A stretch of DNA of 45,155 nt. It comes from Planctomycetota bacterium. GTDB lineage: Bacteria; Planctomycetota; Planctomycetia; Gemmatales; Gemmataceae. The notes under the pieces are model-generated. The model was given only the letters and a program-made list of their open reading frames with translations. It did no database searches and was not told the origin of the DNA. Shown piece by piece: positions 6,629-15,376 of this stretch (positions are counted from its first letter, which is position 1; the number at the start of each line of letters is the position of its first letter). The stretch spans positions 1-45,155 of the forward strand of contig VGZJ01000012.1 of assembly GCA_016872595.1 (NCBI GenBank). The letters run 5' to 3'. Both the position numbers and the translations under genes were made by a program.

Positions 6629-8710
6629 TCACTTCCCCTCGACCGTGACTTCGACCTCCGCGTCGAACAGCAGGCCCGGGTCGCCGCGGCCGGCGAGCGT
6701 CTTCAGCAGGGTGGCGACCGTGCGCGGGGCCGGGCCTTCGTACAGCGTCTTGCCGTTCTGCTTCACCACGACGGGTTTGTCGAGGTCGGCCGTGCGGTCG
6801 TCGAAGCGGACCAGCAGTTTCGACACCTTCTCCGCGCTCGTGACGTCCACCGTTTGTCCGCTGCGGTTCGCGATCACCAGCGCGTCGCCCTTCGCGTCCT
6901 TTGGCGGGACCGCGAGCCAGTACGAGCGGTCGTGAACGGCCCCGGTCTGCTTCCACACCACCTTGTCCGGCACCGGGTTGCGGGTGAACTTCGCCATCCA
7001 CGGCAGGGCGACCTTGTCTTCGAGGTACATCCAGTGGCCCTTGCCCTCGTGAATCTTCACGAAGTGCTCGTACCCCTTCGGGTCGCCCTTGCGGAGCGCG
7101 GTCAACTTCTCGCCGTACTCCTTGCCCACGCCGTTGCGGTTATAGTCCTTGTCGTTCGCGCCCACTTGCAGGGCGAACGGGACGTTGCGCAGCGACAGCA
7201 TGGAGACGCCGTTGGGGTGGCCGGCCATCATCGCGGCGGCGGCCCAGTGGTCGGCCATGCGCGGCCCGATCTGGTAGACGCCGTCGCCGCCGGCCGAGTA
7301 CCCGAGGACGTACACGCGGTTCGGGTTCACGCCCTCGATCACGATCAGGTCTTCGATGAGCCGCGCGAACATGCGGTCGATGTGCCCCTCGTGCCAAAGG
7401 TTCCACGTGTTGGTCGGCGCGCGCGGCGCGAGGTAGATGCCCTCGTCCACCGTGTACAGCTTCTTCTGGTTCTCCCACTGCTCGTCATTTTTGGCCTTCG
7501 TCGTGCCACCGCCGCCGTGCAGCGAGATGTATAGGCTCCACCCGTCCTTCGGCTTCTGCCCGAAGGTCTTGTATGCGAAGGGCATCTCAAGGTTGCCGTC
7601 CTTGATGAGCCGGTTCTTCACCTCGTCGGCGCGGTCCTTCTTGATGAACTCGGCGTGCGCGGTCCAGATCGCCTCGCGCGCGGCTGCTGCGTCGGCCTTC
7701 GTTAGCGGGATCTTGGCGAAGTTCTTAGTCGCGAGGTCGGCGAGCGGGGTCTTGGCGTCGAGCGCGGCTTTCAGTTCTTTGAGCGCGCCGGCGGACTTGG
7801 CCTCTTCCGCTTTCGCGTCGGGCGCGGCGGCCTTCGCGTAGCGGTCGGTGACGTTCTCGGCCGGCACGCTGGCGTTTCGCGGTGCCCACACCAGCGGGAA
7901 GTGTTGCTTGCCCTTCTTGAAGCTGGCCGCGTAGATGGCGTGTTCGGGCACGTCCTTCTTGGCCTGACTCGCCGCGCCCACGAACCACCCGCGATCGAGG
8001 CCGTTCGGGTCTGGCTCGCACGCCCCGGTGAAGTGCCAGCCCTTGTCCCACACTTCCACCCACGTGTGGTTGCCGCGCTTGTCCACCCACAGCGGCGTGC
8101 CCACCAGCCGCGCCGGGACGCCAACCGCTCGGCACGCATCGGCCAGCACGATGCTCAGGCCGGTGCAGCTCGCCTTGCCCGTCTCGATGGACTCCTTCGG
8201 GCTCTGGTTCGGGGCTTTGCGCTGCGTCGAGTAGCCCAGCTTCAGTTTCTTGAACAGCTCCTTGTTGAGCACCTGCACGGCCTCGGTCGGTGTCTTACAG
8301 CCCTTCACGAGGGGCAGGCACAGTTCGTAGAACTCTTTGCGCCACGGGTCGCGCTTCTCGTCGATGTTCGCGTACGGCAGCACGTCGTTGAGGAACAGTT
8401 CTTCGGGCACGTCTTTGCCCCACGGCAGTTCCTTGCGGGCCTTGTACGCGAGATCGACGTTGGTCAGCAGGAACTCGGCGCTGAGCGAAGTGAGGTCGCC
8501 GTCGGGCATGTTCTCGACGAGGAACGCCATGCCCTTGCGCTGATCTTTCGGCACGTCGGTGAGCGCCTTCTCGATCTCCTTGCGATTGTCCTTCGCGCGA
8601 ACGAGCGCCCGCTCCGCGTCGTCGGCCCACCACTTCTCGGCGGCGCGGGCGGGAGACGAGAACGCGACGAGTGCGATGAGAGCAACGGGAACGAAGGCGC
8701 GGCGGGGCAT
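6629..8710 (-). CDS. Exported transglutaminase-like / esterase two-domain protein
   Basis: The protein has 693 residues with a signal peptide (1-23, ending SPARA). The N-terminal half carries a transglutaminase-like fold with the triad visible: Cys182 in GKASCTGLS, His215 in GNHTWVEVW and Asp234 in GACEPD. The second half is an alpha/beta-hydrolase of the PHB-depolymerase/esterase type. It has an oxyanion loop HGGGG (398-402), nucleophile Ser472 in GYSAGGDG, a likely acid Asp520 or Asp522 in VGANDKD, and His559 in GKGHWMY. A beta-rich tail of about 100 residues follows. The substrate is unknown; the two activities could act on a cell-surface protein or ester-linked polymer. RBS: AGGA about 10 nt before the ATG. 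The gene lies 66 bases downstream of hemP on the same strand. Confidence 0.85.
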   Translation of the reverse strand: MPRRAFVPVALIALVAFSSPARAAEKWWADDAERALVRAKDNRKEIEKALTDVPKDQRKGMAFLVENMPDGDLTSLSAEFLLTNVDLAYKARKELPWGKDVPEELFLNDVLPYANIDEKRDPWRKEFYELCLPLVKGCKTPTEAVQVLNKELFKKLKLGYSTQRKAPNQSPKESIETGKASCTGLSIVLADACRAVGVPARLVGTPLWVDKRGNHTWVEVWDKGWHFTGACEPDPNGLDRGWFVGAASQAKKDVPEHAIYAASFKKGKQHFPLVWAPRNASVPAENVTDRYAKAAAPDAKAEEAKSAGALKELKAALDAKTPLADLATKNFAKIPLTKADAAAAREAIWTAHAEFIKKDRADEVKNRLIKDGNLEMPFAYKTFGQKPKDGWSLYISLHGGGGTTKAKNDEQWENQKKLYTVDEGIYLAPRAPTNTWNLWHEGHIDRMFARLIEDLIVIEGVNPNRVYVLGYSAGGDGVYQIGPRMADHWAAAAMMAGHPNGVSMLSLRNVPFALQVGANDKDYNRNGVGKEYGEKLTALRKGDPKGYEHFVKIHEGKGHWMYLEDKVALPWMAKFTRNPVPDKVVWKQTGAVHDRSYWLAVPPKDAKGDALVIANRSGQTVDVTSAEKVSKLLVRFDDRTADLDKPVVVKQNGKTLYEGPAPRTVATLLKTLAGRGDPGLLFDAEVEVTVEGK

Positions 8711-8776
8711 GGCGCAGTTCCTGCGTGGGAGAGCGGGTGCGATGAGTTTAACATAGCGGCCCGCGGCCCGCGCGCG

Positions 8777-8962
8777 CTACTTCTGCAAGATGAGCTTGCC
8801 GCGGCGGGTGATGCGCAGGCGGTAGCGCACGCCGTCGAGTTCGATCCACACCTCGCGCCGGCCGCCGAACAGCTCGTCGGCTTTCAGCACGCGCTCCGAT
8901 TCGTCCGCGGGGGCGTCGGTGCGGTCGCCCGTGTCGTCGGTGTCGGCGGCGGTGTCGCTCAT
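8777..8962 (-). CDS. hemP: Hemin uptake protein HemP
   Basis: The protein has 61 residues. The start ATG at 8962 was chosen because the longer frame upstream runs through the intergenic promoter region. The N-terminal ~25 residues are acidic and low-complexity (MSDTAADTDDTGDRTDAPAD). The C-terminal ~35 residues match the HemP family pattern: LFGGRREVWIELDGVRYRLR followed by ITRRGKLILQK. Family members are small proteins tied to heme uptake; in Burkholderia HemP acts as an activator of the heme receptor gene. The gene is divergent from the DUF1559 operon and shares with it a Fur-like palindrome at 9104-9120, in keeping with iron control. No TonB heme receptor is visible in the window. Confidence 0.85.
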   Translation of the reverse strand: MSDTAADTDDTGDRTDAPADESERVLKADELFGGRREVWIELDGVRYRLRITRRGKLILQK

Positions 8963-9063
8963 GGCGGCCTTGCGTTGAGACGCGGGTTCAGCGGTTCGGG
9001 CGTGCGCGGGGGCGAACCGCTCCGAAAGCCGCAGTCGCCCGGTGCGATTTTTCGCTTCGAGTG

Positions 9064-9091
9064 TTGACAGTATCCGAATGGCGCGTAATGT
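9064..9091 (+). promoter_or_regulatory. Sigma70-type promoter for the DUF1559 operon
   Basis: TTGACA at 9064-9069 is a perfect -35. It is followed after 16 bases by TAATGT at 9086-9091 as -10. Transcription would begin near 9098, just before the palindrome at 9104-9120, so a protein bound there would block the start. The 8963-9279 gap otherwise contains only the facing hemP promoter and the leader of the DUF1559 gene. Confidence 0.6.
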
Positions 9092-9094
9092 AAA
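9067..9094 (-). promoter_or_regulatory. Probable hemP promoter
   Basis: On the minus strand, TTTACA (9094-9089) is followed after 16 bases by TACTGT (9072-9067). It overlaps the plus-strand promoter face to face. The operator at 9104-9120 sits about 9 bases upstream of this -35. The -10 match is only moderate. Confidence 0.4.
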
Positions 9095-9103
9095 GCCATC
9101 TTT

Positions 9104-9120
9104 TTGAGATTTTGTCTCAA
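9104..9120. promoter_or_regulatory. Fur-like operator, copy 1
   Basis: TTGAGATTTTGTCTCAA is a 17-bp palindrome (TTGAGA-N5-TCTCAA) between the divergent hemP and DUF1559 genes. Read as 7-1-7 it is TGAGATT-T-TGTCTCA, close to the Fur variant TGAGAAT-N-ATTCTCA. The same 17-mer recurs on the other strand at 11372-11388 with only the central base changed. Iron control by Fur is an inference from the form and from HemP next to it. Confidence 0.65.
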
Positions 9121-9279
9121 CAATTTTCGGCCCGCGCGGGTGTGACCGTCGCACCCGCGCGGGCGAACGAGCCTGCTCCGCACCGTAACGGCACGCGACC
9201 GAACCCGGTCGCTCACCACCCGTCGCAACGCGGCTCTTCTTGCTTCCCGGTTCTCACACCCGGAGTTAGGAGGAGCGCC

Positions 9280-10164
9280 ATGCGCGCCCGTCTCAAGCGG
9301 AAGGCTTTCACGCTCATCGAACTGCTGGTCGTCATCGCCATCATTGCGGTGCTGATCGGCCTGTTGCTCCCCGCGGTACAGAAGGTGCGCGCCGCGGCGG
9401 CACGCCTGAGTTGCTCCAACAACCAGAAGCAGGTGGGCATCGCGTTCCACGCCTTCCACGACGCCAACGAGCGGTTCCCGACCGCGAACTCGCCGACCTT
9501 CGGCAGCGCGTTCACGCACATCCTGCCCTACGTCGAGCAGGACAACATCCGCCGCGTGTACGACCCGAGCGTCGCGCCCACGGCCGCGCCGAACAACACC
9601 GTCACGAACTTGCCGGTCAAGATTTACATCTGCCCGTCGATGGTCACGCCGCCGGCCCCGGCCGTCGCATACACCACGCACTACGCCAGCTACGCGGCGT
9701 GCGTCGGCAGCAACGACGCGTGGGCCGCGCCCGCCCCGGACAACGGCGTGATCATCCGCAGTAATGCCAACGGCGGCCCGGTGCTGTTCACCGGCGTGCG
9801 CGTGACCGACATCGGCGACGGCACCAGCAACACGTTCCTCGCCGGCGAGATGGGGTTCCAACTGAAGGACTACCTGTTCACCAGCGGGGCGTACGCCGGG
9901 CAGCTGCGCGGCGGCAACACCAGTTGGGCGTTCGGGTACGCCAGCTACAGCTTCGGCAGCACAAAGGTGATGCAGAATACGACTACCGCGCCCGCGACCG
10001 TGAACGACCGCCTTCAGACGTTCCGCAGCGACCACGGCGGCGGCGCGATGTTCCTGTTCGCCGACGGGAGCACCCACTACGTCCGAGATAGTATCGACTT
10101 CTTCTCGTACAAAGCGATGGGCACGCGCAACGGCGGCGAAGTGCTTTCGAGCAACGCCTACTGA
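9280..10164 (+). CDS. DUF1559 pseudopilin-like protein
   Basis: The protein has 294 residues. The start ATG at 9280 follows TAGGAGGAG at about 5 nt; the longer frame to 9112 crosses the operator and is rejected. The N-terminus is a type IV prepilin/pseudopilin cleavage signal, [20 protein letters not shown] (residues 7-26), with the hydrophobic helix continuing to LLPAVQKV. The body is a DUF1559 domain, and the C-terminal H-X9-DG motif is present ([12 protein letters not shown]) near 246-257. DUF1559 proteins are very numerous in planctomycetes and probably form surface or pseudopilus structures. This one is the first gene after the Fur-like operator and is followed at 10 bases by a lipoprotein. 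Confidence 0.92.
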
Positions 10165-10174
10165 GGTGCCGCCG

Positions 10175-10348
10175 ATGCTTCCGCGAATGCTGTTCCTGTG
10201 CGCCGCGGTGCTGCTCTCCGGGTGCGGGGGCGACGCCCCGACCACAGCCCCGCCCGCGCCCCCGAAGGGCGACAAACTGCCCCCGGAGGTCGAGTTCGAC
10301 CCCGTTACGGCGACCGATAAGTACAAAAGCAAGAAGTCCAAACCCTAA
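10175..10348 (+). CDS. Small lipoprotein
   Basis: The protein has 57 residues. I chose ATG at 10175 over GTG at 10166 because GAGGTG, overlapping the previous stop codon, makes a good ribosome site 6 bases before the ATG. The signal is a clear lipobox: MLPRMLFLCAAVLLSGCGG, with Cys17 the lipidated residue. The mature part is Pro-rich then charged (VEFDPVTATDKYKSKKSKP). Small lipoproteins just after DUF1559 genes are common in planctomycetes. The tight spacing suggests translational coupling with the DUF1559 gene and the following kelch gene. Confidence 0.8.
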   Translation: MLPRMLFLCAAVLLSGCGGDAPTTAPPAPPKGDKLPPEVEFDPVTATDKYKSKKSKP

Positions 10349-10370
10349 TCACACACGAGGAGAACCCCCG

Positions 10371-11375
10371 ATGAAAACGCGATCCCTGTTCGCGCTCGTT
10401 CCACTCGCGGCGCTGGTGCTGGCGGCGCGCGGCGCGGAACCGGCCAAGCCCGCGGCGCTGCCGGCCATGCCGAAGGCCGTGTCCAGTTTCGGCGCGATCG
10501 AGAGCGACGGCTACCTGTACATCTACGGTGGGCACGCCGGCAAGACGCACAGCTACGACATCAAGACCGTGCTGGGCACGTTCCACCGGCTCAAGCTCGA
10601 CGGCGGTACGAAGTGGGAAGCGCTGCCGGGCGGCCCGGGCGCGCAGGGGCTGAACCTCGCGGCGCACAAGGGCAAGGTGTACCGCGTCGGCGGGATGCAG
10701 CCGCGCAACGCCCCCGGCGAAGCGGCCGACAACATTTCGCTGGCCGACTGCGCCCGCTTCGACCCGAAAGTCGGCAAGTGGGAGGCGCTGCCCGCGCTGC
10801 CGGTCGCCCGCTCGTCGCACGAGCTGGTCGTCGCCGGCGACAAACTGGTCGTGGTCGGCGGGTGGCAGATGAAGGGCAAGGGCAACTCGTCCGAGTGGCC
10901 CGAGGACGCGCTGGTGATGGATCTGAGCGCGGCCAAGCTCGAATGGAACGCGGTCAAGCAGCCGTTCCAGCGCCGCGCGCTCACGGCCGCCGCCGTCGGC
11001 ACGAAGGTGTACGCCATCGGCGGGCTGGGGATCGACGGCATCGACCGGCGCGTGGACGTGTACGACACGGCCACGGGCAAGTGGAGCGAGGGGCCGAAAC
11101 TGCCGGGCGGCGAGCGCGTCGGGTTCTCGCCCGCGGCCTGCACCGTGGGCGGCCGGGTCGTGGTGAACACGTCCGAAGGCCCGGTGTACCGGCTGACCGA
11201 GAAGGGCGACGCGTGGGAAAAGGTGGGCGAGGCCAAGAAGAAGCGGCTCGTGGCCCGGCTGGTCCCGTTCGGCACCAACCGGGTGGTCCTGCTCGGCGGC
11301 GCAAGCGCCGGCGACAACGCCGATTCGCTCGAGGTGATCGTACTCGGCAAGCCGGAGCCGCTCGCCGGTCGTTGA
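10371..11375 (+). CDS. Secreted kelch-repeat beta-propeller protein
   Basis: The protein has 334 residues with a signal peptide (1-22, ending AARGAEPAK). RBS: GAGGAG about 8 nt before the ATG. About five to six kelch-type blades are visible through the YxxGG pattern: LYIYGGHAG, VYRVGGMQ, LVVVGGWQ, VYAIGGLG and VVLLGGASA, with Trp at the fourth-strand positions (GKWEALP, GKWSEGP, DAWEKVG). Kelch propellers bind partners or substrates. No galactose-oxidase copper residues could be assigned, so an enzymatic role is not supported. The gene lies inside the operon that begins at the Fur-like operator, 22 bases after the lipoprotein. Its stop codon lies within the second operator. Confidence 0.88.
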   Translation: MKTRSLFALVPLAALVLAARGAEPAKPAALPAMPKAVSSFGAIESDGYLYIYGGHAGKTHSYDIKTVLGTFHRLKLDGGTKWEALPGGPGAQGLNLAAHKGKVYRVGGMQPRNAPGEAADNISLADCARFDPKVGKWEALPALPVARSSHELVVAGDKLVVVGGWQMKGKGNSSEWPEDALVMDLSAAKLEWNAVKQPFQRRALTAAAVGTKVYAIGGLGIDGIDRRVDVYDTATGKWSEGPKLPGGERVGFSPAACTVGGRVVVNTSEGPVYRLTEKGDAWEKVGEAKKKRLVARLVPFGTNRVVLLGGASAGDNADSLEVIVLGKPEPLAGR

Positions 11376-11388
11376 GACACAATCTCAA
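11372..11388. promoter_or_regulatory. Fur-like operator, copy 2
   Basis: TTGAGACACAATCTCAA is a 17-bp palindrome. Its reverse complement differs from copy 1 (9104-9120) only at the central base. It overlaps the kelch stop codon and lies just before a promoter at 11396-11425, 228 bases upstream of the second DUF1559 gene. Confidence 0.65.
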
Positions 11389-11395
11389 AAAGAAC

Positions 11396-11425
11396 TGGAC
11401 ACCGACGGGGTGCCGGTCGTACAGT
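11396..11425 (+). promoter_or_regulatory. Possible promoter for the DUF1559-PepSY pair
   Basis: TGGACA at 11396-11401 and TACAGT at 11420-11425 are separated by 18 bases. The Fur-like operator ends 7 bases upstream. The leader to the gene is about 185 bases long, and nothing else distinctive was seen in 11426-11615. Confidence 0.4.
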
Positions 11426-11615
11426 AGTTGAACACGGGCACGCGGCGACCGCGGGCCCGAACCGCAAGGAAAACCCGCTGATCGGGGCCGCGCCACGGCG
11501 CGGCCCCACGTTCCCGACCCGGCCCCAATACCCTCAGGCTAGCTTCCGCAAGCGGGCTTCGACCCGTGTCCGTACGCGACGCCGCACCACCCTCACGCTC
11601 CTACGAGGTGCAGCG

Positions 11616-12614
11616 ATGCGTCGTTCCGCGTTTACGCTCATTGAGTTGCTCGTCGTCATCGCGATCATCGCGGTGCTCATCGGCCTGTTGCTCCCGGCCG
11701 TGCAAAAGGTGCGTGAAGCCGCGTCGCGACTGAAGTGCCAGAACAACCTGAAGCAACTCGGGGTCGCCTTGCACAACTATGAAGGGGCGAACGGGTACTT
11801 CCCGCCGTCGACGATCTCGACCGGAACGGCCGCCGCGCAACCGTGGTCCGCGCAGGCCTTTCTGCTCCCCTTCGTAGAAGGGGACAACATGTTCCGGCTC
11901 ATCAATTTCGATGTGGGCTATCACTCCGGCGTCAACCTGACCAACTACCCGGCGTACGGCGTAGCCGCGCTGAAGGTGCCGGTCCTCGTGTGCCCCAGTG
12001 ACCCGAACGACCGGCAGCGGCTCAACGCCTCGACCGGACTGCCCGAACACTACCCGACCACTTACGGCCTGAACCTCGGGCAGTACCTGATTTGGAACCC
12101 CGTGACCCGACAAGACGGCGGGGCGGCGTTCGGCCCCAACCAGCGGCTCACGCACGGGGCCTACGCGGACGGCCTGAGCAACACCGTCGCGATGGCGGAA
12201 GTGAAGGCGTTCCAGCGGCGCGTTCACGACGCCGTGATGCCGTCCGCGGCCCCCGCGACCCCGGCCGCCGTGTCGTCAAGTTTTAGCGGCGGCGCGTTCG
12301 CCGACACCGGGCACACCGAGTGGGTGTGCGGGCGGGGCGTTCACATCGGGTTCACCTCGCTGTTCCCGCCGAACACGAACGTCCCTTACACCGTGAGCGG
12401 GGCGACGTACGACTTCGACGTCTGTAGCAGCCGCGAGGGGCGCAACCAGACCGACCCGACGTACGGCGTCATCACCGCGCGTAGCTACCACACGGGCGGG
12501 GTCAACACGCTCAAGATGGACGGGTCCGTATCTTACGTGCGCAACGGCATCGCACCCGCGACGTGGCAGGCGCTCTGTACCCGCGCGGGCAACGAAGTGG
12601 TCGGCGACAACTGA
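11616..12614 (+). CDS. DUF1559 pseudopilin-like protein
   Basis: The protein has 332 residues. It starts with [20 protein letters not shown], a near-perfect class III (type IV pilin-like) signal with Glu at position +5 of the cleaved helix. The DUF1559 body follows (KCQNNLKQLGVALHNYEGAN), and the C-terminal H-X9-DG is HTGGVNTLKMDG near residue 292. RBS: GAGGTG about 6 nt before the ATG. It resembles the DUF1559 protein at 9280 in the first ~50 residues, but the bodies differ clearly, so it is not a recent duplicate. It is followed at 12 bases by the PepSY protein, and a Fur-like palindrome lies upstream. Confidence 0.92.
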   Translation: MRRSAFTLIELLVVIAIIAVLIGLLLPAVQKVREAASRLKCQNNLKQLGVALHNYEGANGYFPPSTISTGTAAAQPWSAQAFLLPFVEGDNMFRLINFDVGYHSGVNLTNYPAYGVAALKVPVLVCPSDPNDRQRLNASTGLPEHYPTTYGLNLGQYLIWNPVTRQDGGAAFGPNQRLTHGAYADGLSNTVAMAEVKAFQRRVHDAVMPSAAPATPAAVSSSFSGGAFADTGHTEWVCGRGVHIGFTSLFPPNTNVPYTVSGATYDFDVCSSREGRNQTDPTYGVITARSYHTGGVNTLKMDGSVSYVRNGIAPATWQALCTRAGNEVVGDN

Positions 12615-12626
12615 CGAGGAGTACGA

Positions 12627-13622
12627 ATGACGCCCGCGGAGTCTGAGCACCCCACCGCCCCGGCTCCGGGGCCGTACCGCCTTCCGGTCCGCAAGCGCGC
12701 GATGCACGCCGTGCGGCGCGCGCACATGTACTGCGGGCTGTTCCTGCTGCCGTGGGCGATCCTCTACGGCGTCACCGGGTTCCTGTTCAACCACCCCACC
12801 GCGTTCGCCGACGCGCCGATGAAGTCATTCGGCGCGGGCGAGTTGAACGACACGCCGTTCGCTTTGCGCCCCACGTCTGCTGGTGTCGCGGAGCAAGTGG
12901 TCGCGGCGCTGCGCGGCTACGGGGCCGACGCGCGCCCGCTCACTGTCGTCGAACCGGAGAAGGCCCGCTACACGCGCGACTTCGCCTTCGCCACCGTCCG
13001 CACCGACGATCAGGAAATCAGCGTGCTGTTCGACATGACTTCGCCGAACGGCACGATCCGCCCGAAGCCGGCCGCGCCGCGCCCCCCGAAGAAGCCCGAC
13101 GCCCCGAAGCCGTTCGCACACGGCCCGCGCCTCGACAGCACGGTCGCGCGGTTCGTGACAGAGAAGCCGCTCGACGAGCGCGTACGGGACACAGTGCCGA
13201 TGGTGCTCGACCGCGCCGGGTTCCCGAAGGGCACCGTGACCGTGACCAGCGTGCCGGACCTGACGTTCCTCGCGACCGACGGCGCGACGACGTGGCGCGT
13301 GACGTACAACGCGCTCGCGGGCACGGTCAGCGCGGCCCCGGCCGAGTCCGCGCCGCCCCCCGACGAACTGACGACGCGCCGGTTCCTCACGCGGATGCAC
13401 CTCGCCCACGGGTTCCCCGGCAGCACCAACACCAAATGGTTCTGGGCGCTTATCGTGGACGCGATGGCGCTGGTGATGGTGTTCTGGGGCGCGTCCGGGT
13501 TGTTCATGTGGTGGCAGGTGAAGGCGAGTCGCAAGCTCGGCCTCGTCGTGCTCCTGCTGAGCGCCGCCGCCGCGACTGCGCTGGGTTTGGGGATGCACGA
13601 GGTGTTGACGCCGAAATCCTAA
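12627..13622 (+). CDS. PepSY-associated transmembrane protein
   Basis: The protein has 331 residues, with RBS GAGGAG about 7 nt before the ATG. The first membrane segment (about 33-53: AHMYCGLFLLPWAILYGVTG) is preceded by RRAH. A large extracytoplasmic region of about 200 residues contains a PepSY-like part (VTVTSVPDLTFLATDGATTW) and a Pro-rich linker. Two more helices follow (near 272-295, KWFWALIVDAMALVMVFWGA, and 303-322). Membrane-flanking histidines (RAHMYCG, TRMHLAHGF) resemble those of PepSY_TM proteins, some of which (PiuB-like) are iron-regulated and linked to siderophore or heme reduction. That role here is inferred. It ends the operon; a strong hairpin follows at 13700. Confidence 0.8.
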   Translation: MTPAESEHPTAPAPGPYRLPVRKRAMHAVRRAHMYCGLFLLPWAILYGVTGFLFNHPTAFADAPMKSFGAGELNDTPFALRPTSAGVAEQVVAALRGYGADARPLTVVEPEKARYTRDFAFATVRTDDQEISVLFDMTSPNGTIRPKPAAPRPPKKPDAPKPFAHGPRLDSTVARFVTEKPLDERVRDTVPMVLDRAGFPKGTVTVTSVPDLTFLATDGATTWRVTYNALAGTVSAAPAESAPPPDELTTRRFLTRMHLAHGFPGSTNTKWFWALIVDAMALVMVFWGASGLFMWWQVKASRKLGLVVLLLSAAAATALGLGMHEVLTPKS

Positions 13623-13699
13623 CACCGGCGGGCAACCGTTCCGCGTCGCGAAGTAATCGCACACACATTATTCGCCGCGCCTTCACGCGCACCTTCCTA

Positions 13700-13738
13700 C
13701 GCTAACACCGCACGGGTTCGCCCCGTGCGGTGTTAGCG
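13700..13738 (+). terminator. Perfect 17-bp hairpin, probable terminator
   Basis: Arms 13700-13716 (CGCTAACACCGCACGGG) and 13722-13738 pair perfectly with a 5-base loop. TTTCCCC follows. It closes the operon ending with the PepSY gene. A GTG at 13730 that would extend the PhoD gene lies inside the stem, which argues against that start. Confidence 0.7.
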
Positions 13739-13762
13739 TTTCCCCTCGCAAGGGCGCTGCTC

Positions 13763-15376
13763 ATGCTGGACCTGAAGAACCTGCGGGCCGCGGTGCGGCA
13801 CCAGGGCGGCGTCAGCCGCCGGCTGTTCCTCGCCTACGGCTCCGCGCTAGCGGCCCTGCCGCTGCTCGGCACGCGTGTCGAGGGGCGCGTCAACCGGCAG
13901 CCCAAGTTCGCCGCCAACCCGTTCGCGCTGGGCGTCGCCAGCGGCGAACCGACCGACACCGGCGTCGTGCTGTGGACGCGCCTTGCGCCCGCCCCGCTAG
14001 GGGAGGGCGGCGGGATGAAGCCGGAACTGGTCGAGGTGAAGTGGGAACTGGGCGAAGACGCCGAACTGAAGACGGTCCTCAAGAGCGGCACCGCGGTCGC
14101 CACCCCGCAACTCGGCCACGCGGTCCACATCGTCGCCGATGGGCTGAAGCCGGACCGCTGGTACTTCTACCGCTTCCACTGCGGCGGCGCGACCAGCCCG
14201 GTCGGGCGCACCCGCACCGCGCCCGAGTCGACCGCGACCCCGGACAAACTCAACTTCGCGTTCGCCTCGTGCCAGCACTTCGAGCAGGGGCTGTTCACCG
14301 CGTACGAGCACATGGCGAAGGACGAACTCGACCTCGTGATTCACCTCGGCGACTACATCTACGAATACCCCGGCGCGGAGAAGCGCGTGCGCAAGCACGT
14401 CGGGCCGGCGAAGACCAAGATCAAGGCGCTGGGGGACTACCGCAACCGGCACGCCCAGTACCGCACCGACGAGCACCTGCAAAAGATGCACGCCCGGTGC
14501 CCGTGGATCGTGACGTGGGACGACCACGAGTTCGACAACAACTACGCCGACCTGATCCAAGAGGAGCAACCGAAGGGGAAGGAGAAGGCCGACCCTGCGG
14601 ACTTCCTCGAACAGCGGGCCAACGCGTACCAAGCGTACTACGAGAACATGCCGCTGCGCCCGGCGTCGCTGCCGCGCGGCGCGCACATGAGGCTGTACCG
14701 CACGACGCACTTCGGCCGGCTCGCGAGCTTCCAAGTGCTCGACACGCGCCAGTACCGCACCGACCAGCCGAACAACGACAAGGCCTCCGACCTGAACGCG
14801 GACGCGCTGAACCCGAAGAACACGCTCCTCGGCGCGGAGCAATCGAACTGGCTCAAGCACGCGCTCTTGAAGTCCACGGCGACGTGGAACGTGCTCGCGC
14901 AGCAGGTGATGATGGGCATGGTCGATCTGGCCGCGGGCGAGCCGAAGAAGTACTCGATGGACCAGTGGCCCGGGGCCGCGTTCGAACGCATGCGGTTGAT
15001 GAAGTGGATCGCGGAGCGCAAGGTGCCGAACCCGGTGGTGCTCACCGGCGACATTCACTCGAACTGGGTGAACGACCTGCGCGTGGACGACCGCAAACCG
15101 GAGGGCGCGATCGTCGCCGCCGAGTTCGTGGGCACGTCCATTTCCAGCGGCGGCAACGGCACGAAGGAGCCGAAGGGGTTGAACGACCTGCTCGCGGAGA
15201 ACCCGTTCATCAAGTACCACAACCGGCAGCGCGGGTACGTGCGGTGCGCGGTGACGCCGAAGGCGTGGCGCAGCGACTACGTGATCGTGCCCGAGGTGCT
15301 GAAGCCCGGCGGCCCGGCCGAGGTCGGCGCGGCGTTCGTGGTCGAGGCCGGTGTCGCCGGCATCAAGAAGGCGTAA
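13763..15376 (+). CDS. phoD: Alkaline phosphatase D (PhoD-like), Tat-exported
   Basis: The protein has 537 residues. ATG at 13763 was chosen because the alternative GTG at 13730 lies inside the terminator stem. Twin-arginine signal: GGVSRRLFLAYGSALAALPL (residues 16-35). An N-terminal PhoD beta domain (FALGVASGEPTDTGVVLWTR) leads into the metallophosphatase domain. Metal-site motifs are present: LGDYIYEYP, WDDHEFDNNYADL and LTGDIHSNWV. In the family the enzyme hydrolyses phosphomono- and diesters outside the cytoplasm using Fe/Ca, typically under phosphate limitation. No Pho box was noticed. It stands alone between two hairpins, so it is probably monocistronic. Confidence 0.92.
   Translation: MLDLKNLRAAVRHQGGVSRRLFLAYGSALAALPLLGTRVEGRVNRQPKFAANPFALGVASGEPTDTGVVLWTRLAPAPLGEGGGMKPELVEVKWELGEDAELKTVLKSGTAVATPQLGHAVHIVADGLKPDRWYFYRFHCGGATSPVGRTRTAPESTATPDKLNFAFASCQHFEQGLFTAYEHMAKDELDLVIHLGDYIYEYPGAEKRVRKHVGPAKTKIKALGDYRNRHAQYRTDEHLQKMHARCPWIVTWDDHEFDNNYADLIQEEQPKGKEKADPADFLEQRANAYQAYYENMPLRPASLPRGAHMRLYRTTHFGRLASFQVLDTRQYRTDQPNNDKASDLNADALNPKNTLLGAEQSNWLKHALLKSTATWNVLAQQVMMGMVDLAAGEPKKYSMDQWPGAAFERMRLMKWIAERKVPNPVVLTGDIHSNWVNDLRVDDRKPEGAIVAAEFVGTSISSGGNGTKEPKGLNDLLAENPFIKYHNRQRGYVRCAVTPKAWRSDYVIVPEVLKPGGPAEVGAAFVVEAGVAGIKKA

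Follow-up and report, generated by a model that had tools for sequence, protein, structure and literature searches.

Introduction

Fur boxes and Fur regulons have been described in E. coli, B. subtilis and Vibrio, where the operator takes the form of a 7-1-7 or a 19-bp inverted repeat. In B. subtilis, the smallest unit that Fur binds is the 7-1-7 repeat (PMC7536154). The operators analysed here have the 7-1-7 geometry and TGA..A.T-like arms in common with these boxes, and they share the gene company of the known regulons, namely hemP, feoAB, bacterioferritin/Bfd and PepSY_TM. In the proteobacterial hemP operons under Fur control, as reported for Stenotrophomonas hemP-hemA (PMC9241770), hemP adjoins a Fur box, as it does here, whereas here hemP diverges from a set of DUF1559, kelch and PepSY genes. 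The operators of DtxR and IdeR are also palindromes in front of iron genes, but their consensus fits less well here. The papers searched contained no Fur box consensus for planctomycetes and no report of Fur control of DUF1559 or kelch genes; for DUF1559 and iron together, they yielded one Rhodopirellula transcriptome paper, which mentions iron once.

The locus lies in a window of 45,155 nucleotides, which is the whole stretch of DNA analysed, from a member of the Gemmataceae; the genes present would fit a Gemmata-like planctomycete. Its distinctive feature is box C, a palindrome at the end of a kelch gene that is likely to be bound by dimeric Fur when iron is sufficient, and that lies upstream of a putative promoter (11396-11425) for DUF1559b and PepSY_TM.

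Genes of the cluster

HemP and PepSY_TM are families linked to iron or haem, and it was because of these two families that a Fur box was considered. The genes are arranged as follows.

8777 to 8962, reverse strand: hemP (PF10636; E 3.5e-17), diverging from box B
9280 to 10164, forward strand: DUF1559a, with a prepilin-like N-terminus
10175 to 10348, forward strand: small ORF with a lipobox-like LLSGC, its start read by eye
10371 to 11375, forward strand: kelch-repeat protein, full length compared with its relatives
11616 to 12614, forward strand: DUF1559b, with a prepilin-like N-terminus
12627 to 13622, forward strand: PepSY_TM membrane protein
13730 to 15376, forward strand: PhoD-like phosphatase, preceded by a 107-bp gap

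PhoD is possibly co-transcribed with DUF1559b and PepSY_TM. No TonB receptor was recognised among the nearest genes of the cluster. A contig scan with the PepSY protein gave a sole match, a relative already known (a Planctomycetia MAG). Truncation of the kelch protein by box C was rejected, since its C-terminus ends at the same place as those of its relatives. Homologous kelch genes adjoin Fur boxes elsewhere, near bacterioferritin in L120 (791-1804) and behind a DUF1559 gene in L129 (4350-5378), which suggests that the kelch protein is a regular member of the Fur regulon. At the 3' end of the kelch gene in L069 (about 1045), the frame appears to continue into FCPIMV...CCGACVKKW, which is like a small metal-binding domain.

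Operators and promoter-like sequences

The predicted operators of the cluster, and the promoter-like sequences that accompany them, are listed below.

11372 to 11388, no strand: predicted Fur box C, TTGAGACACAATCTCAA, overlapping the kelch stop TGA at 11373-11375; 29.2 bits
11396 to 11425, forward strand: promoter-like TGGACA-18-TACAGT, 7 bp 3' of box C
9104 to 9120, no strand: predicted Fur box B, TTGAGATTTTGTCTCAA, between hemP and DUF1559a; 33.2 bits
8975 to 8991, no strand: degenerate hemP-proximal site A, TTGAGACGCGGGTTCAG, weak at 5.5 bits
9064 to 9091, forward strand: promoter-like TTGACA-16-TAATGT ahead of DUF1559a, conserved and followed after about 12 bp by box B
9067 to 9094, reverse strand: promoter-like TTTACA-16-TACTGT, toward hemP, its -35 preceded by box B at a distance of 9 bp

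The 17-mer of box C is a perfect palindrome of the form 6-5-6, with 6-base arms, and it can also be written as the 7-1-7 inverted repeat TGAGACA-C-AATCTCA. The initial annotation had described it as a second, inverted operator copy that equals the reverse complement of the copy at 9104 except for the central base. Sequence and coordinates are correct: the reverse complement of box C, TTGAGATTGTGTCTCAA, has one mismatch to box B, at position 9 of 17. The copy is real, but the cluster has at least two sites besides it, box B and the weak site at 8975-8991, so it is not the second. Because the 17-mer is a palindrome and so its own inverse, "inverted" is no property of the second copy and carries little information. 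The match of 16 out of 17 bases can be explained without duplication, as two good sites for one dimer. The site does overlap the kelch stop codon, the TGA that ends the ORF 10371-11375; this overlap follows trivially from an in-frame TTGAGA.

The hemP gene is present in 69 of 95 family genomes, and 60 family hemP loci were fetched for comparison of their operators. In most of them, one strong palindrome lies toward DUF1559, and in many it is accompanied by a weaker one close to hemP; in most of the genus the two sites are about 122-132 bp apart. Box B is conserved in most relatives of the family, dozens of them, and site A, at 129 bp from box B, is in register with the second site of many relatives. 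A 25-column matrix was built from 73 hemP-region sites of relatives, with the window excluded. Applied to the window, it gives the scores listed above for box B (match at 9105) and box C (match at 11373), while its maximum in 0.97 Mb of block-shuffled sequence is about 19 bits.

The two conserved divergent promoter-like sequences at hemP overlap on one segment, 9064-9094. Box B sits a few bases beyond the expected start of the DUF1559a promoter, the classical position of a repressor. Immediately after box B, the forward strand has a strong hairpin (9130-9164), whose TGACCGTC-like loop is kept in L046, L049 and L056 with an altered stem.

Control of the last genes

The 240-bp gap between kelch and DUF1559b contains both box C and its promoter-like sequence, in the order box, 7 bp, TGGACA-18-TACAGT, 190 bp and then DUF1559b. 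The promoter-like sequence, which had been reported just after the site, is present as described. It fits at 9 of 12 positions and is the sole sigma-70-like match in the 5.2 kb from 8700 to 13900, where 0.3 are expected from shuffles. A transcript from it is predicted to start near 11432.

When iron is sufficient, the dimeric iron-sensing repressor Fur would sit on the 7-1-7 repeat of box C. On iron starvation, Fur would leave boxes B and C, and hemP, the DUF1559a-lipoprotein-kelch genes and the DUF1559b-PepSY pair would all be turned on. The promoter at 11396-11425 would give a transcript of DUF1559b and PepSY_TM, perhaps with PhoD, and the pair would be transcribed also from a promoter of its own. 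The computations show the motif, how rare and how conserved it is, and the iron genes that accompany it; that Fur binds it, in which direction it acts and that the promoter is active are inferred. Box B lies just downstream of its -10, while box C lies upstream of its -35, which makes plain occlusion of the promoter a less obvious mechanism for C than for B.

The initial annotation held that the second copy shows a control point of its own for the last two genes. This was overstated, since sharing a site is by itself no proof of a separate promoter. An own control point is plausible nevertheless, and iron could act on these last genes independently: the position of the box, the promoter-like sequence and the box-to--35 spacing agree with it, but internal boxes are infrequent. 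Among about 12 clusters in which kelch is followed by a second DUF1559, only the window, L053 and L091 have one. The internal box of L053 (27.6 bits) is preceded by its own TTGACA-17-TATCGT, and L091 has internal boxes of 25.0 and 24.4 bits. A matrix scan found none in at least eight comparable clusters, including L047, L049, L051, L052, L054 and L081-L084. With three of about 12 clusters, internal boxes are by this comparison recurrent yet lineage-specific. Lack of conservation at orthologous loci, which had been named as counter-evidence to the original reading, therefore applies in part to box C; it does not apply to box B, whose motif is kept.

It is rather improbable that C is a true Fur box without an independent promoter, all genes forming a single operon from 9064-9091 and Fur at C acting as a roadblock or having little effect. 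The genes are co-directional, the nine clusters named above have the same gene order without an internal box, and the promoter-like match at C reaches only 9/12. However, the only such match of the region stands exactly behind the box, within the 240-bp gap, and L053 also has a promoter-like sequence at its internal box.

Box C might instead be an evolutionary remnant, left when DUF1559a-lipoprotein-kelch was inserted or the operator was duplicated, in which case no function would be required of it. We consider this unlikely. In the nearest relative (genome G014, locus L046), there is no kelch gene and DUF1559b-PepSY stands directly behind the hemP box, with a PepSY protein 76% identical to that of the window; moreover, B (reversed) and C are identical at 22 of 23 bases (9121-9099 against 11371-11393), including the unusual flank AAAAAGA. 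On the other hand, the leaders of B and C cannot be aligned beyond those 23 bases, and C has kept the two arms of its palindrome unbroken, a sign of probable selection. Recent duplication of the entire operator region was rejected, since the alignment is limited to these 23 bp. The preferred reading is still that of a Fur-bound box C with a promoter behind it. The spacing of box B to the hemP-facing promoter resembles that of box C to its own, and box C with its promoter would correspond to the side of B that faces hemP.

Leader RNA behind the probable Fur boxes

The DUF1559a leader contains a further conserved element.

9166 to 9239, forward strand: conserved leader RNA element between box B and DUF1559a, with the covarying stem GAGCC.GC/GCGGCTC

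This element scores 57.7 bits with model R3, which was built without the window, and it is shared by the family leaders between Fur box and DUF1559 start (about 58-111 nt). Besides the window, it is seen in L041-L100, L118, L123, L125, L129, L130 and L135. The stem changes compensatorily (GAGCC/GGCTC, GAGCT/AGCTC, GAGG/CCTC). In an alignment of 54 leader sequences that was fitted to the structure, which favours a covariation result, 96.9% of cells are paired and double changes number 34, compared with 7.3 in shuffles; covariation scores 0.207, compared with 0.083, and none of 500 shuffles attained the observed score. A MAFFT alignment of 28 sequences (A2) gives the same covariation picture.

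Leader matches in the genus were checked outside the training loci or with their flanks. Each of the eight matches of at least 37.8 bits (L183, L184, L186-L189, L196 and L197) follows closely on a site that scores 28 bits or more with the Fur matrix and precedes a prepilin motif. Among the weaker matches, the one in L185, at 30.5 bits, is accompanied by a prepilin motif and by a box of 19.6 bits; those in L190-L195, at 23.7-32.3 bits, lack both box and motif and seem to be chance matches. An Rfam search of the leaders gave no meaningful family match, and a search of 147 further genomes sampled from the phylum, under strict filters, did not find the element.

In terms of a module of Fur box, leader RNA and DUF1559, box B has the leader and box C does not. 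A leader-like string at 11532-11590, behind C, was rejected: its 27.4 bits with model R2 came from a training set that contained it. Since R3 finds no match behind box C, the claim of a leader RNA there is withdrawn. It is possible, though doubtful, that in this family hemP and the DUF1559, kelch and PepSY genes form a dedicated system for iron or haem acquisition, with DUF1559 under the double control of Fur and of a leader RNA that could sense iron, haem or a related signal, and that the box C unit kept Fur and lost the RNA.

The regulator and the distribution of its motif

The motif is most likely a Fur box because of its company of hemP, feoAB, bfr-bfd and ApbE and because of the single FUR-family protein. 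It is a 7-1-7 inverted repeat (about 15-19 bp) with TGA...TCA arms, and its sites are located 5' of iron uptake and storage genes (hemP, feoAAB, Bfr, Bfd and ApbE) in this genome and its relatives. The relatives' matrix was trained without feoB sequence, yet in 18 of the 19 genus genomes it has a match of at least 25.6 bits ahead of feoB; in the remaining one the stretch is truncated. In the window's own genome, the box, in a slightly shorter form, is 24 bp before the start of feoA-feoA-feoB. Elsewhere in the genus, exact sites also occur next to Ferritin/Bfr, Fer2_BFD (Bfd-like ferredoxin), ApbE and other DUF1559 genes.

The genome encodes one FUR-family protein (gene at C221:10136; E 7.5e-25), whose best NCBIfam models are Fur, with scores under the curated cut-offs. 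A single such protein is present in 18 of the 19 genus genomes; G020, a fragmented draft of 94% completeness, has boxes and no FUR match. A matrix search for a box near the fur gene itself found none. The family consensus agrees with the Fur 7-1-7 consensus TGATAATNATTATCA at 10 of 14 positions, and since arm position 4 is G (TGAGA, not TGATA), the motif is a variant of the classical Fur box. The earlier claim that the sites at 9104 and 11372 belong to one regulon is well supported, and the regulator can be named as Fur with good confidence.

The genome also encodes a DtxR-family protein (C384:345), so the case for Fur comes from the shape of the motif and the genes around it and does not depend on a lack of rivals. 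That this protein, or another iron regulator, reads the operator is very unlikely: the DtxR consensus, TTAGGTTAGSCTAACCTWA, even in its most favourable alignment, is matched at 7 of 14 positions, and FUR occurs once in 18 of the 19 genus genomes, the search for DtxR having covered the window's own genome.

In the 6.8-Mb genome, TTGAGA-N5-TCTCAA occurs at two sites, both in this cluster, and in the 19 genus genomes at 37 places, compared with two for the reversed control pattern; a chance match was rightly judged very improbable. A profile search of the window's own genome returned box B, box C and the feoAAB site, three places in all, and nothing else. Four other matches to TGAGANNNNNTCTCA in the genome (L005, L006, L008 and L009) were rejected as boxes, being absent from these results. 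Three of them are one repeated string, TGAGAGCGGTTCTCA (L006 1501-1515, L008 1501-1515 and L009 473-487), with similar GC-rich flanks in L006 and L008; it is probably a dispersed palindromic element with no relation to the Fur box. That box C is a chance palindrome on a stop codon is hardly credible, for although the TGA gives part of the TTGAGA arm for free, both such sites of the genome are in this cluster and box C scores some 10 bits above the shuffled maximum.

Comparison with known systems

As a probable Fur box, box C is of a common type, but no prior description was found for its lineage or for the gene families next to it, and its sister site, box B, has an unexpected RNA companion. 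A planctomycete Fur box consensus would make iron regulons readable from many uncultured genomes, and it would connect iron with the kelch protein and with DUF1559, a large family of unknown function. As a candidate new regulatory element, the leader RNA found with these boxes is open to testing. Compared with the classical TGATAAT, the consensus here, TTGAGACTNAGTCTCAA, has G at arm position 4 and C at position 6. The regulon differs from those described in that its predicted targets include planctomycete DUF1559 pseudopilin-like genes and kelch genes.
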